From: Curtobacterium aurantiacum
GTDB lineage: Bacteria > Actinomycetota > Actinomycetes > Actinomycetales > Microbacteriaceae
Length of the DNA stretch: 64,000 nucleotides
Assembly: GCF_018598555.1 (NCBI RefSeq)
Contig: NZ_JAHEWN010000001.1
Coordinates: 310,001 to 374,000, forward strand
Reading direction: 5' to 3'
Of this stretch, positions 18,584 through 41,800 are shown piece after piece (position 1 is the stretch's first letter; each line of letters opens with the position of its first letter). Both the position numbers and the translations under genes were made by a program. The notes under the pieces were generated by a model, which saw only the letters and a program-made list of their open reading frames with translations, was not told where the DNA came from and did not search any database.

Positions 18584-18595
18584 GCCCCGACAGGC

Positions 18596-35053: not shown

Positions 35054-35085
35054 TTGACATTGACACTAATGTCAATGTTGACGAT
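35054..35085 (+). promoter_or_regulatory. MerR-type operator/promoter O1 of the efflux gene
   Basis: The dyad ACATTGAC-ACTAAT-GTCAATGT occupies 35057-35078. A -35 element TTGACA lies at 35054-35059, and GACGAT at 35080-35085 fits a -10 at a 20-base spacing, the long spacing used by MerR-activated promoters with the dyad between the two boxes. The ATG of the pump is seven bases past the -10 and has no ribosome site, so the transcript may be leaderless. Confidence 0.7.
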
Positions 35086-36603: not shown

Positions 36604-36701
36604 GTCGTGATGCTCGGCACGAGTCAGATGGTTTCACGGGCGCGGGATGTCGGCGGAGAAGTTGAGTCCATCTTCCGTCTCCTTGGTCTTCCCCATGCTC
36701 A

Positions 36702-36723
36702 ACGTTGTCACTAATGTCAATGT
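36702..36723 (+). promoter_or_regulatory. MerR operator O2, before the merR gene
   Basis: ACGTTGTC-ACTAAT-GTCAATGT: same centre and right half as O1, left half changed at two positions. It lies 21 bases before the merR start, on top of the likely promoter (TTGTCA at 36705), so it suggests autoregulation. A perfect TTGACA also lies on the opposite strand at its edge (36720-36725). Confidence 0.65.
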
Positions 36724-36744
36724 CAAGCCGACGACGGAGGGTAG

Positions 36745-37134
36745 ATGAGAATCGGAGAACTGGCAGAGAAGACGGGCGTCGCACCCCGGATGCTCCGTTA
36801 CTACGAGAAGCAGGGACTGATCCAGCCGACGAGGCTCCCGAACGGGTACCGCGACTACGACGACTACCTGATCGAACGCGTCGGGAAGATCCGCGGGTTG
36901 GTCGACTCCGGCATCCCGACCCGCATCATCATCGATGTCCTCCCGTGCCTGGACAAGCAGCAAGCGATCGTCGTCAGCAACGTCGAGCCAGGACTCCGCG
37001 ACATGCTCGTCGAGGAACGCGACCGCATGGCGCAGAAGATCGACTTCCTGATCCAGAACCGCGACGCCCTGACCGCGTACATCGAAGCGCTCGACGCTGC
37101 CACATCGGACCGGCTCGCTACCCAACCGAGCTAG
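36745..37134 (+). CDS. MerR family transcriptional regulator
   Basis: 129 residues. The N-terminal winged HTH is textbook MerR: MRIGELAEKTGVAPRMLRYYEKQGLI, then RLPNGYRDYDDYLIERVGKI. A short dimerisation coiled coil fills about 85-115 (LVEERDRMAQKIDFLIQNRDALTAYIEAL). There is no cysteine cluster of metal-sensing members and no large effector domain, so the inducer is unknown. GGAGGG lies before the ATG. It is flanked by two genes whose promoters carry the same dyad as its own, so it almost surely controls all three. Confidence 0.92.
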   Translation: MRIGELAEKTGVAPRMLRYYEKQGLIQPTRLPNGYRDYDDYLIERVGKIRGLVDSGIPTRIIIDVLPCLDKQQAIVVSNVEPGLRDMLVEERDRMAQKIDFLIQNRDALTAYIEALDAATSDRLATQPS

Positions 37135-37155: not shown

Positions 37156-37187
37156 TTGACATTGACACTGATGTCAGTGTTGAGACT
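37156..37187 (+). promoter_or_regulatory. MerR-type operator/promoter O3 of the monooxygenase gene
   Basis: ACATTGAC-ACTGAT-GTCAGTGT (37159-37180), one change in the centre and one in the right half against O1. TTGACA (37156-37161) and GAGACT (37182-37187) are placed exactly as in O1, and the ATG is again 38 bases from the first base of the -35. No ribosome site is present, which again suggests a leaderless message. Confidence 0.7.
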
Positions 37188-37193
37188 GGTGAT

Positions 37194-38552
37194 ATGACCA
37201 CCGAGACCTCCCAACTGACGTCCGCCCCTCAGATGCTCCTGGCAATGCAGCTCGTCGGCGGGTTCGGCGGGGCTCCCGGTGCCTGGCGCATGCCCGGCGT
37301 CCCCCTGGACAGCTACACCGACATGGACGCACACGTCCGCCATGCCCAGGCTGCCGAGCGCGGCAAGGTCCAACTGCTCTTCTTCGCCGACACTCCCGCA
37401 CTCGAGACGGATCTGAACGTGCAACCGCAGCGGCACGTCATCGACCCGGTCGTGGTCATGACGTCCATCGCCCGCGAGACGAAGCGCATCGGGCTGGTTG
37501 CCACCGCTTCGACGACGTTCAACGAGCCGTACAACATCGCCCGGCAGTTCAAGGCGATGGACGTCATCAGTCACGGACGCATCGGCTGGAACGCGGTCAC
37601 GACCTCCAACCCAGAAGCGGCTGCGAACTTCGGGGTGGCGGTGCCGCCGAGACCGGAGAAGTACGGACGAGCGCACGAGGTGATCCAGGTCGTTGAGGCG
37701 CTTTGGGGCAGCTGGGGCACGGACGCGCTCATCGGCGATGTCGCAGCGGGCATCTATGCCGACGCGTCGAAGATCCAGCCGATCAATCTCGGTGGTCAGT
37801 ACGTCGCTTCCCGTGGGCCGCTGCCCATCCCGCCGTCGGAGCAGGGTCAGCCCGTCATCTTCCAGGCCGGCGGGGGTCAGAACGGCCTCGAACTCGCCGG
37901 GCGTTACGCGGACGGGGTCTACGCCACTCCCTACGACATCGCCAGCGCGAAAGCGCAGCGCGATGCTCTCCGCGCAGCTGCCGTCGCCGCGGGCCGAAAT
38001 GCTGACGACATCAAGATGTTCGCCGGCTTCATGCCCACCGTTGGCGCTACCAAGCGGGACGCCCTCGACCGTCGCCGCGCGCTTGACGAGTCCATCGACC
38101 TTCGCCAGCGCGTTGCCTACCTCGGGCACATGATCGGGTTGCCCCTCCGCTACGAGGACATCGACCAGTCCGTGCCCGAACAGGTCCTCGAGCGGGCGGT
38201 GGCGAACCCGTCCGACCCACGCTCGGACCATGCGCTCGCTGTTGTCCGCGAGGGATGGTCTCTCCGCGATGTCATCGCGCACGGCGTCATCGACTACCAC
38301 CCCGTCGTCGCCGACACCCCCGAAAGGATTGCCGACTTCATGCAGGAGTGGTTCGAGGCCGGCGCATGCGACGGCTTCTCCCTCTCCATCGACAGTCTCC
38401 ACGACGGAGTCGACGCCTTCGTCGACGAAGTCGTGCCGATCCTCCAGGAACGCGGCATCTTCCACCGCGACTACGAGGGCGCCACCCTTCGCGACAACAT
38501 CCACGCAGCCCCTCGCTACGGACGAGACCCACGAGTCATCGGCGAGAGCTGA
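37194..38552 (+). CDS. NtaA/DszA-type FMN-dependent monooxygenase
   Basis: 452 residues, bacterial luciferase-like TIM barrel of the NtaA/SnaA/DszA/DmoA group. Typical segments are MQLVGGFGGAPGAWR near the N-terminus, SHGRIGWNAVTTSNPEAA and PPSEQGQPVIFQAGGG. Members use FMNH2 from a separate reductase to oxidise nitrilotriacetate, sulfones, dimethyl sulfide, streptogramins and other organics; the substrate here is unknown. Its promoter shares the MerR dyad of the efflux pump. No flavin reductase gene is adjacent, so a reductase elsewhere must supply FMNH2, or the oxidoreductase gene that follows may take part. Confidence 0.88.
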   Translation: MTTETSQLTSAPQMLLAMQLVGGFGGAPGAWRMPGVPLDSYTDMDAHVRHAQAAERGKVQLLFFADTPALETDLNVQPQRHVIDPVVVMTSIARETKRIGLVATASTTFNEPYNIARQFKAMDVISHGRIGWNAVTTSNPEAAANFGVAVPPRPEKYGRAHEVIQVVEALWGSWGTDALIGDVAAGIYADASKIQPINLGGQYVASRGPLPIPPSEQGQPVIFQAGGGQNGLELAGRYADGVYATPYDIASAKAQRDALRAAAVAAGRNADDIKMFAGFMPTVGATKRDALDRRRALDESIDLRQRVAYLGHMIGLPLRYEDIDQSVPEQVLERAVANPSDPRSDHALAVVREGWSLRDVIAHGVIDYHPVVADTPERIADFMQEWFEAGACDGFSLSIDSLHDGVDAFVDEVVPILQERGIFHRDYEGATLRDNIHAAPRYGRDPRVIGES

Positions 38553-38616
38553 TGCCACCGGGACCATCGACACCGCGACGAAGAGGATGAATGCCGCGTC
38601 GGCATCAACGGGTAAC

Positions 38617-38662
38617 TTCGATCCACGTCAAGTTTGATGTGTATCGAAAAAGGCCGTACTGT
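38617..38662 (+). promoter_or_regulatory. Long dyad operator and promoter of the quinone oxidoreductase gene
   Basis: The 32-base dyad 38617-38648 has outer arms TTCGAT/ATCGAA, middle CAC/GTG and inner TCAA/TTGA, with two unpaired positions per side only at single bases. TTGATG (38634-38639) and TACTGT (38657-38662) form a good -35/-10 pair with 17-base spacing, so the right half of the dyad covers the -35. Such long dyads with TTGA cores are typical of ArsR-type repressor sites; the ArsR gene at 39860 is the natural candidate. Confidence 0.65.
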
Positions 38663-38715
38663 GAGCCCATGGGCTCCGGAACACCCCGGTGCATCACCGC
38701 GACGATTGGACCGCC

Positions 38716-39726
38716 ATGCGCGCCTGGACCCTCGCCGACTTCGGCTTCGACAATCTCCACCTCCGCGAGGTCGAGGTCCCGACCCCCGGCCCCAACGAGC
38801 TTCTCGTGGAGGTCTCGGCCGTTTCCCTGAACTACCGTGACAAGGCACTCGTCGAAGGGAACTACTCGCCCGAGAAGATGCCGAAGGGCCTCATCGTCGG
38901 CGCGGACTCCGCCGGCGTCGTCACCGCGGTCGGCTCCGACGTGACGAAGTGGGAGGTCGGCGACCGTGTCACCTCGCACTTCTACTCCACGTGGGCCGAC
39001 GGTCCGTGGGACCAGGTGCACACCGACGCGATGATCGGCGGCCCGATCGATGGCGGTCTCGCCGAGTACATGCTGCTGCACGAGGACCGCGTCGTGAAGA
39101 GCCCCGACAACCTCACCGACGCGGAAGCGGCCACGCTGCCGATCGCAGCGCTGACTGCGTGGTTCTCCCTCTTCCACCACGGCAAGCTGGAGACGGGTGG
39201 CAGCGTGCTCGTGCAGGGCACCGGCGGGGTGTCCGTGTTCGCGATCCAGATCGCATCCGCATTCGGCGCACGCGTGATCGCCACGTCCTCCAGCGACGAC
39301 AAACTCGCCATCGCGAAGGAACTCGGCGCGACCGACCTCATCAACTACCGCACCACCCCCGACTGGGCCGGCAAGGCGCTCGAGCTCACCGATGGGAAGG
39401 GCGTCGACGTCGTCATCGACGTCGCCGGCGGTGACGGCATCAACGACTCCGTCCGCGCAGCGAAGGCCGGTGGCGTCGTCGCAGTCATCGGCTTCCTCGC
39501 AGGGCAGACCACGAACCTCGACCTCATGACGGTGCTGTTCCGCCAGACCACCATCCAGGGCATCGCCGTCGGTACTCGGGTGGCTTTCGAGGAGCTCGTC
39601 GAGTTCCTCGATGACCACGAGATCAGCCCCGTCATCGACTCCACCTTCCGATTCGAGGACGCGAAGGCCGCCTACGACCGTCTCGCCGAAGGTCCCCTCG
39701 GCAAGGTCGTCATCGAGGTCCGCTGA
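38716..39726 (+). CDS. Zinc-free NAD(P)H:quinone oxidoreductase / alcohol dehydrogenase-like
   Basis: 336 residues, medium-chain reductase family without the catalytic zinc cysteines. The N-terminal domain has SLNYRDKALVEG; the nucleotide-binding domain has QGTGGVSVFAIQIA, a GxGGVSxF motif typical of this NADP-linked group, and LGATDLINYRTTPDW. It would reduce quinones or enones with NADPH. The start is uncertain: the ATG at 38716 fits the family; a GTG at 38689 would add nine residues. It follows the monooxygenase gene and has its own operator and promoter. Confidence 0.85.
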   Translation: MRAWTLADFGFDNLHLREVEVPTPGPNELLVEVSAVSLNYRDKALVEGNYSPEKMPKGLIVGADSAGVVTAVGSDVTKWEVGDRVTSHFYSTWADGPWDQVHTDAMIGGPIDGGLAEYMLLHEDRVVKSPDNLTDAEAATLPIAALTAWFSLFHHGKLETGGSVLVQGTGGVSVFAIQIASAFGARVIATSSSDDKLAIAKELGATDLINYRTTPDWAGKALELTDGKGVDVVIDVAGGDGINDSVRAAKAGGVVAVIGFLAGQTTNLDLMTVLFRQTTIQGIAVGTRVAFEELVEFLDDHEISPVIDSTFRFEDAKAAYDRLAEGPLGKVVIEVR

Positions 39727-39859
39727 CCTCGACTGCTCCTCGCGTTCCGAGTCGTTCTCGTCGTCGCCGCTGGTCGTTGTGACAGATGCACGGCGGAGAA
39801 GCTCGCAGCGGCTGGCCACACCCTCTCGGTACGATCATTCCCCCGTAAGGAGGCTGCGA

Positions 39860-40183
39860 ATGGCTCGAGCACCGATCGACGACGAACCATCCACCGAGGA
39901 CCTGCACTTCCCGCGAGTCCTGGAAGTCATCGCCGACCCGATCCGGCTGAGCATCGTGACGCAGCTCGCGTCGGCCGAAGCGGACATCAGCTGCGGCAAC
40001 TTCGACCTGCCCATCAAGGCTTCGACCGCGACGCACCACTTCACCGCGCTGCGGCAGGCCGGTGTGATCCACCAGTACTACGTCGGCACGTCTCGGATGA
40101 ACGTACTCCGCGAAGCCGACCTGGAAGAAGCGTTCCCCGGGTTCCTCCCTTCCGTGATCGCTGGCGTCCGCAGGGGCAGGTAG
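39860..40183 (+). CDS. ArsR family transcriptional repressor
   Basis: 107 residues, a single ArsR/HTH_20 winged helix: EVIADPIRLSIVTQLASAE, then IKASTATHHFTALRQAGVIHQYYVGTSRMNVLR. No CVC metal motif, so a metal sensor is unlikely; a redox sensor through the single cysteine (DISCGNFD) is possible. AAGGAGG lies seven bases before the ATG at 39860, one of the strongest ribosome sites in the window. It lies 133 bases after the oxidoreductase gene, the promoter of which carries the long dyad, so it probably represses that gene. Confidence 0.88.
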   Translation: MARAPIDDEPSTEDLHFPRVLEVIADPIRLSIVTQLASAEADISCGNFDLPIKASTATHHFTALRQAGVIHQYYVGTSRMNVLREADLEEAFPGFLPSVIAGVRRGR

Positions 40184-40375
40184 CGGCTCCACAGCAATCC
40201 CATCCGCGATGACCCGCCCTCCGGCCATGAGTCCGACGCGATCGACGACGGCGCCGATGAGCGCCATCACAACCCCCGCATCCAGCGCCCCGACGCCGAA
40301 GGCGCGGCAGAACACCCGTGGCGCAAGGTGGGTCAGCATGCCTGCATCCACGTCCTCAGGACCTACCCTGGACGG

Positions 40376-40738
40376 ATGCTCTCCCGCCGCGAAGCCGCAG
40401 TCCGGCTCGACATCCCCCTCGAGATGGCGACCCGCCACGGCATCCCGTCGCGCCTGAGTGAAGCGGAGCTCGACGCGATCGAGCAGGACCCGCCCGCCTG
40501 GCTCGTGCAGTCCCGCGCAAACCGGACCGGCACCAAGAAGGTCTGGACGCGCCTGGAGTGCGTGGTCTGCGGCTTCGACGAAGAGGCGCGTCCGAAGAAG
40601 TGGTGGCCCGAGTGGGACTACCTGATGTGCGACTACCACGCCCCGTACCAGGCGCCCGAGCCCACCGCCGGCCTGACCCGGCGTGAGGTCGAGGGCATCG
40701 GCAGCCGCTTCATCGCCCTCGTCGACGAGAAGCGCTAG
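40376..40738 (+). CDS. Small protein with possible zinc knuckle, function unknown
   Basis: 120 residues from the ATG at 40376. The N-terminal part is like a small HTH (LSRREAAVRLDIPLEMATRHGIPSRL.EAELDAIE), a helix pattern seen in excisionase-like or phage-associated proteins. The middle has ECVVCGFDE and, 22 residues on, LMCDYHAPY: two Cys pairs plus His, a plausible zinc site. The C-terminus is charged. No family recognised. It stands alone between the ArsR gene and a perfect palindromic terminator. Confidence 0.65.
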   Translation: MLSRREAAVRLDIPLEMATRHGIPSRLSEAELDAIEQDPPAWLVQSRANRTGTKKVWTRLECVVCGFDEEARPKKWWPEWDYLMCDYHAPYQAPEPTAGLTRREVEGIGSRFIALVDEKR

Positions 40739-40781
40739 CCCACAGGGTCCGCCGGGGCGCCGCGGCAGCAGACGCGACCAT

Positions 40782-40831
40782 GGACGGACGGGAGGCCCGG
40801 TGCCAGCTGGCACCGGGCCTCCCGTCCGTCC
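40782..40831. terminator. Perfect 50-base palindrome, family A, between convergent genes
   Basis: Two exact 25-base arms without loop: 40782-40806 and 40807-40831, centred on CAGCTG and beginning GGACGGACGGGAGGCCCGG. It is the most complete copy of family A. GACGCGACCA, the conserved flank, lies just to the left. It separates two convergent genes and is the expected bidirectional terminator. Confidence 0.85.
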
Positions 40832-40849
40832 TGGGTGGACCTGCGGACG

Positions 40850-41800
40850 CTACTCGGTCGTCGAGACCCAGTCGATGAGGAGGTTGCCCTCGTCGCCCCA
40901 GTTGCCGACCTGGAACATGAAGCGGTGCGGCGTCGTCGGCACGTCCTCGGTGATGGTCTGCAGGACCCTGCCGTCGACGCTGTACGTGACGGACTCGCCG
41001 GGCACCCAGTCCACCTTGTACGTGTGCCAGTCGCGCCACGAGACACCGGTGTCGACCTGGATGCGCTCGGCCTCCCGTCCCGGGGTCATCGAGTGGTGGA
41101 ACACCATCGGGTTCGACTCGAAGTTGCCCTCGGGGAAGTCGATCTCGCCGTCGGACCACACGTTCGACGTCGGCCACAGCATGAACGCCGCACCGTTGCC
41201 GTCGCCGCCGGTCGCCTTCGCGCGGACGGAGAACGAGCCGCCGACGTGGTCCCAGGCGCCGTCGGAGGAGCCGAAGGTGCCGGCCGCTCCGGCACCGGTG
41301 CCGAGGGCGACGTCCATCACGCCGTCGTGCACCGAGACCGTCTTGCTCGGCGCGTAGATGCCGGAGGTGCCGTCGGGGTAGGGCTGCCACGACTGCGGGT
41401 AGAGCGACGAGACGAGGCCGGTGACAGCGTTCGTGGTGAAGTCCTCGACGAAGGAGGCATCGGGAGCGAGCGCCGCGAGGTCCTCGGGGGCCGCCTCGGG
41501 TTCGGGCTCGGGCGCTGCCTCGGGCTCGGCTTCCGCCTCGGGCTCGGGCTCGGCGACGGGCGCTGTGTCCTCGATCGGAGCGGAGTCCTGCGTGGGCTCC
41601 GGTTCCGGGGCCCACTCGTCGGTCGGGGCCGGCGGCTCCGTCTCGTCCGGGGCCGGCGTCGGGGTGGGGTTCACCGGAGCGTGGTGCCAGCGGCGCTCGC
41701 CGTCCCAGCCCCACCAGGTCCGGGCGGAGGCGGCGGTGGGGACGCCGAGGACCAGGGCGCCGGCGGTCGCGGCCGCCAGGACTGCGCGGTGGCGGATCAT
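40850..41800 (-). CDS. Secreted glycoside hydrolase family 16 protein
   Basis: 316 residues. A signal peptide (cleavage near ASARTWW, about residue 26) leads to an acidic, Pro/Glu-rich linker (about 48-108, repeated EPEPE and EAEPEA) and then a GH16 beta-jelly-roll domain. The catalytic motif is DGEIDFPEGN with Glu219, Asp221 and Glu224 in the ExDxxE arrangement (nucleophile, helper, acid/base). GH16 enzymes cut beta-1,3/1,4-glucans, galactans or related polymers; the substrate is not readable. No carbohydrate-binding module is present. The linker would hold the domain away from the cell wall or be secreted with it. Confidence 0.85.
   Translation of the reverse strand: MIRHRAVLAAATAGALVLGVPTAASARTWWGWDGERRWHHAPVNPTPTPAPDETEPPAPTDEWAPEPEPTQDSAPIEDTAPVAEPEPEAEAEPEAAPEPEPEAAPEDLAALAPDASFVEDFTTNAVTGLVSSLYPQSWQPYPDGTSGIYAPSKTVSVHDGVMDVALGTGAGAAGTFGSSDGAWDHVGGSFSVRAKATGGDGNGAAFMLWPTSNVWSDGEIDFPEGNFESNPMVFHHSMTPGREAERIQVDTGVSWRDWHTYKVDWVPGESVTYSVDGRVLQTITEDVPTTPHRFMFQVGNWGDEGNLLIDWVSTTE

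Follow-up and report, generated by a model that had tools for sequence, protein, structure and literature searches.

Within the 64-kb window, by which we mean the whole stretch of DNA that was analysed, an inverted repeat precedes a gene for an MDR-family reductase, and a gene for a small ArsR-family repressor follows in the same direction. The features of the locus are as follows.

38617-38648, no strand: predicted 32-bp operator (dyad), TTCGATCCACGTCAAGTTTGATGTGTATCGAA, with 13/16 pairs; kept before the MDR gene in the comparison loci L040, L041, L043, L044, L045 and L046
38618-38631, no strand: box 1, TCGA-N6-TCAA, putative site of one ArsR dimer; the unit was set by isolated 18-bp boxes before paralogues
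38634-38647, no strand: box 2, TTGA-N6-TCGA, whose left half-site doubles as the -35 hexamer (from the box pattern and the -35 comparison)
38634-38639, plus strand: -35 hexamer, TTGATG; TTGAYN stands at the same place in 7/7 sites compared
38657-38662, plus strand: -10 hexamer, TACTGT, after a spacer of 17 bases; TANNNT at 17 or 18 bases in 5/7 sites, CANNAT in 2/7
38716-39726, plus strand: MDR-family NAD(P)H-dependent reductase, 336 aa, the presumed target gene (Pfam ADH_N and ADH_zinc_N)
39860-40183, plus strand: ArsR-family repressor, 107 aa, with a single cysteine, Cys45 (putative sensor); HTH_20 and HTH_5 match just under the Pfam cut-offs

The best NCBIfam model for the reductase was quinone_pig3 (PIG3 quinone oxidoreductase family), at 210.5 bits and below the cut-off of 296.8. 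The protein has neither a cysteine nor a GHE zinc motif, and thus lacks the usual zinc site. The MDR and arsR genes are separated by 133 bp, so their co-transcription cannot be taken as given. The upstream neighbour of arsR is the MDR gene, the next gene past it (40328-40738) has a weak DUF5997 match, and no thioredoxin gene is adjacent. No ArsR match above 42% identity was found among the matches listed for 47 congeneric genomes, and no MDR match reached E 1e-60 in the 29 congeners searched, so the MDR-ArsR pair looks acquired or repeatedly lost. At a cut-off of E 1e-18, ArsR matches came from eight of 398 genomes of the family, the genome under study among them; in one of the eight (G464), an MDR gene (67%) and an arsR gene (68%) occur together with a dyad like the window's upstream of the MDR gene. 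An order-wide MDR search, in which five candidates were scored per genome, provides weak evidence of absence.

A sequence-only reading had placed a dyad with two mismatched pairs at 38617-38662, without a copy elsewhere in the window. The dyad itself was recovered; it spans 38617-38648, and the end given, 38662, is that of the -10 hexamer. The mismatch count depends on the central G/T, being two if this pair is called spacer and three if it is counted. In the window, whose GC content is 71%, nine 32-mers have at least 13/16 pairs, and the dyad is the only one with at least 50% AT. Because such dyads arose at a mean of 2.3 per sequence in 40 first-order Markov sequences, each 64 kb long, pairing quality by itself is not rare, and we dropped the argument for significance from pairing alone. 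None of the dyads in the Markov sequences was AT-rich; pairing and AT composition together are rare, and it is the comparative evidence that gives the site its significance. The 64-kb window holds no second two-box site scoring 15/16, in line with the claim that the dyad has no copy there, and no second copy within three mismatches of the dyad consensus was found in the genome's own 3.6-Mb assembly. A terminator-like match on the minus strand (38651-38668) was rejected, as it did not exceed the shuffle expectation for the region.

The proposed promoter layout, with the dyad covering the -35 of a promoter with 17-base spacing, was present and conserved in seven orthologous sites. In all seven, the window's included, the -35 is kept inside box 2; for the -10, the best match among spacers of 16-18 bases was taken at each site. 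The label "unusually good" that had been given to this promoter is unsupported, since its hexamers match the sigma-70 consensus at 4 + 3 = 7/12 bases and a consensus promoter scan of 37600-41200 listed no promoter. The MDR promoter is weak by consensus, with a conserved layout.

From a scan of named genomes we took the best 80 of 346 ArsR relatives as comparison loci, among which L045 and L047, judged by length and position, lie on the same contigs as L033 and L034. The same MDR gene adjoins arsR in six of these 80 loci (Rathayibacter sp. VKM Ac-2630, two Arthrobacter, Kocuria dechangensis, Paeniglutamicibacter sulfureus and Cryobacterium sp. N22), with an MDR identity of 66%-91%; the two genes are co-directional in four and divergent in two. 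The predicted operator stands before the MDR gene in 6/6 of the loci, among the best 80 of 346, that have both genes. A quick tree of 82 rows and 113 columns, few for so many rows, grouped the window ArsR with eight loci (L040-L047) at 99% SH-aLRT. In two members of this clade, L042 (Arthrobacter ruber) and L047 (Mycetocola miduiensis), a genome-wide search gave no MDR match at E 1e-50, and there is no such operator near arsR. The earlier proposal, with the dyad as the site of the repressor encoded downstream, is strongly supported by this co-occurrence of operator, MDR and ArsR and by the absence of the operator from the two MDR-less loci of the clade; its description of the likely repressor, 1.2 kb downstream with one cysteine and no metal motif, agrees with the arsR start at 39860 and with the sequence, in which we read no CxC. 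The segment 38617-38648 is very probably the landing site of this ArsR over the MDR promoter, as predicted from sequence. In L042, an MDR remnant of 25 residues (L042:3870-3944; 64% identity) lies directly before arsR, where the operator is gone, which points to MDR loss there. In L040 (Rathayibacter sp. VKM Ac-2630; L040:2935-4119), the MDR matches residues 1-318 only, after which the frame differs and overruns the arsR start; its C-terminus looks frameshifted.

The dyad appears better read as two adjoining boxes of approximately TYGA-N6-TCRA, 16 bp apart from center to center, although each of the window boxes is weakly palindromic as read from the sequence. We set a box pattern of approximately WYGA-N6-TCRW by eye on L033, L003, L037, L038 and some further sites and then counted it on all 80 loci, so that it was defined on part of the loci later counted. 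At an array threshold of 15/16, a two-box array was found near a gene start in 66 of the best 80 of 346 loci, and the other 14 had no array at this threshold. With a gap of 3 (a 17-bp period), there were 77 near matches in 29,160 bases of upstream DNA versus four in 622,700 bases elsewhere. With a gap of 2 (a 16-bp period), six were near and two elsewhere, the near ones solely in the six MDR loci. Near matches at other gaps were few (six at -4, five at 0 and at most four at any other). We then sorted the best 80 of 346 loci by partner gene, assigned by tblastn to one representative of each type, with a Pfam check on L053 and L076. The array was present in 6/6 loci with the window's MDR type (MDR1), all with gap 2; in 40/42 loci with a second MDR type (27%-31% identity to the window's) and in 19/21 with an Old Yellow Enzyme, both with gap 3; and in 1/11 loci with none of these partner genes. 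The array goes with the partner gene. ArsR relatives in many actinobacteria are accompanied by similar putative paired boxes and by other detoxifying reductases adjoining.

Isolated copies before ArsR paralogues support the box as a unit of the sequence pattern. Upstream of a genus-wide ArsR paralogue, perfect 18-bp boxes (GTACGA-N6-TCGTAC) come in pairs in 26/28 congeneric loci and singly in 2/28; the paired boxes lie 29-52 bp apart, and the copy in the genome under study (L120) has two, 30 bp apart. The sole locus from another genus in this paralogue set (L018) has no 18-bp box. In the same genome, a pair of perfect GTTTGA-N6-TCAAAC boxes with a distance of 39 bp (L121:2811-2867) sits between a second ArsR paralogue and a divergent ORF of ∼200 aa.

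These isolated boxes bear on a different reading of the same site, in which a single symmetric ArsR complex, made of one dimer or of two dimers paired about the central G/T, would span all 32 bp of the dyad, with the boxes as its arms. The 13/16 pairs about the dyad center exceed the symmetry within either box, as such a complex would have it, and in Streptosporangiales-type sites the outer GTACGA and inner TTTGA half-sites differ, so that the whole array is symmetric. We nevertheless consider a single complex unlikely: the perfect 18-bp boxes before paralogues stand alone, 29-52 bp from one another, and nine of the best 80 of 346 loci have three consecutive boxes matching 24/24 (counted without a control for triples), an arrangement with no single center of the same kind. 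Far less probable still is that the dyad is bound by the MerR-family protein encoded at 36745-37134, with ArsR acting elsewhere. That gene lies 1.5 kb upstream and a 55% homologue occurs near the MDR gene in L041, but putative MerR-type dyads near TTGACATTGACACTGATGTCAGTGTTGA differ in sequence from the 38617-38648 dyad, and a MerR homologue is found in 3/80 loci (best 80 of 346), one of them (L041) with the window's MDR; the operator follows ArsR.

We compared the repressor with its solved relatives. The best was the thiol sensor RexT (7txm, an entry named in the RexT paper, PMC8960804), with 65 bits by phmmer versus 23 for the next entry and 105 versus 31 bits in a profile search. Cys45 aligns with the peroxidatic Cys41 of RexT and is kept in 81/81 sequences (the best 80 of 346 loci and the window); it is the sole cysteine in 66 of them. 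In the same 81 sequences, Arg65 (RexT Arg61) is invariant, Asn81 (RexT Asn77) is found in 66 with Ser in the other 15, and the place of RexT Thr68 is held by Gln72 throughout; the Arg and Asn positions thus match the reactive site of RexT. The place of RexT Cys40 is a cysteine in 0/81 and is Ser44 in the window ArsR, which makes the vicinal-disulfide chemistry of RexT impossible there; oxidation, a mixed disulfide or alkylation of one cysteine would therefore be the likely switch. Homology to RexT supports a putative non-metal thiol-sensing role for the window ArsR. How one-cysteine sensors perceive oxidants or electrophiles is called enigmatic by the RexT authors (PMC8960804).

The place of RexT Lys50 (Lys54) is Lys in 72 of the 81 sequences and Ala or Pro in exactly nine clade members, which have the 16-bp register wherever an array is present. 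We considered this substitution as the cause of the changed half-site and rejected it: the correlation lies within one clade, and the link is not clean, since L121 keeps Lys beside its GTTTGA-N6-TCAAAC boxes.

It is very improbable that the window ArsR is instead a metal or metalloid sensor. A general NCBIfam metalloregulator model did match weakly (34.8 bits, cut-off 55), but the protein has one cysteine and no CxC or other multi-cysteine metal site, its nearest solved relative RexT is described in PMC13421787 as binding no metal, and the partner genes are reductases, not metal pumps.

Taken as a whole, a two-dimer ArsR operator over the MDR promoter, with reduced ArsR repressing and Cys45 sensing an oxidant or electrophile, is the reading that we consider likely. 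Each box would hold one ArsR dimer, and reduced ArsR would occupy both. Over 16 bp the helix makes about one and a half turns, which would place the two dimers on roughly opposite faces of the DNA; as box 2 extends over both the -35 hexamer and the promoter spacer, bound ArsR would block RNA polymerase at the MDR promoter. The arsR gene, downstream and in the same direction as the MDR gene, is probably co-transcribed with it and would then be autoregulated. Cys45, beside the DNA-reading helix, may act as the sensor: its oxidation, S-thiolation or alkylation by a quinone, enone or peroxide would release the operator, the MDR reductase would be switched on and remove the electrophile, and arsR would be expressed too if co-transcribed. 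The partner enzymes, MDR and Old Yellow Enzyme proteins, belong to the NAD(P)H-dependent reductases, and quinones and enones are common substrates of both; this fits with an electrophile signal.

The proposed system can be compared with two described ones. CyeR of Corynebacterium glutamicum, the regulator of cye1 (Ehira 2010, as cited in PMC8960804), is a RexT-cluster ArsR repressor of an electrophile-reducing oxidoreductase. Like the window ArsR, it is placed in the RexT cluster and has a cysteine at the place of RexT Cys41 (PMC8960804). A CyeR-type layout, with arsR divergent from an Old Yellow Enzyme-type gene, occurs in 21 of the best 80 of 346 loci. The window differs in that its presumed target is an MDR reductase lying upstream in the same direction, with no linked Old Yellow Enzyme; its ArsR also lacks the second cysteine, seven residues away, that is given for CyeR in PMC8960804. 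The proposed window operator has a 16-bp box spacing. In RexT-trxA2 of Nostoc/Anabaena PCC 7120 (7txm, 7txn and 7txo), the regulator has Cys41, Arg61 and Asn77 at the places held by Cys45, Arg65 and Asn81 in the window ArsR. The latter differs in having Ser44 for Cys40 and Gln72 for Thr68, and its presumed target is an MDR reductase, whereas that of RexT is a thioredoxin. The RexT motif as given in PMC8960804 and PMC13421787, ATTCG-N15-CGAAT, differs in spacing from the window boxes.

DtxR/IdeR-type operators are also short and hold two dimers on opposite faces of the DNA. The geometry is the same as that proposed here from spacing alone, but DtxR and IdeR are unrelated, metal-dependent repressors. 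The window system can be classed as RexT/CyeR-like regulation. Our literature search, mostly of titles and abstracts, gave no description of its operator architecture and no tandem-box ArsR operator of this kind; an earlier description is possible.

More tentatively, with the chances somewhat under even, these loci may represent a wide actinobacterial family of one-cysteine ArsR electrophile sensors, whose tandem boxes would be read by two or three dimers on alternating faces with a 16- or 17-bp period. The reductase partner would have been swapped (two MDR types and Old Yellow Enzyme) while the sensor and array were kept, and the window clade would have shifted from 17 to 16 bp, with its outer half-site changing from GTACGA to TTCGAT or TTTGAT. 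If this is true, the shifted register and half-site would insulate the window clade from paralogues in the same cell. Apart from this wider reading, the comparison gives a palindrome that stood alone a place in an operator code for a family of ArsR proteins, which can be tested: where the boxes lie, how many there are and how far apart they stand would predict the reductase gene that each ArsR controls. The loci also provide a natural series, in spacing (16 versus 17 bp), in box number (one, two or three) and in cysteines (one versus two), for studying the response to oxidants or electrophiles of an ArsR whose single cysteine has no resolving partner.

Finally, we noted other repeats in the window. 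MerR-type dyads near TTGACATTGACACTGATGTCAGTGTTGA lie at 35054-35081, 37156-37183 and 36699-36726 (minus strand), with two, zero and six mismatches to the 37156 copy, before an MFS exporter, an NtaA/DmoA-type monooxygenase and the MerR gene, respectively; a similar site with five mismatches precedes an MFS homologue in L040. Dispersed GC-rich palindromes of at most 50 bp, with GGACGGGAGGC...GCCTCCCGTCC in common, are found in intergenic positions at 18595, 31245, 34863, 40782, 56732 and 59861, and resemble a terminator or REP-like element present in several copies.
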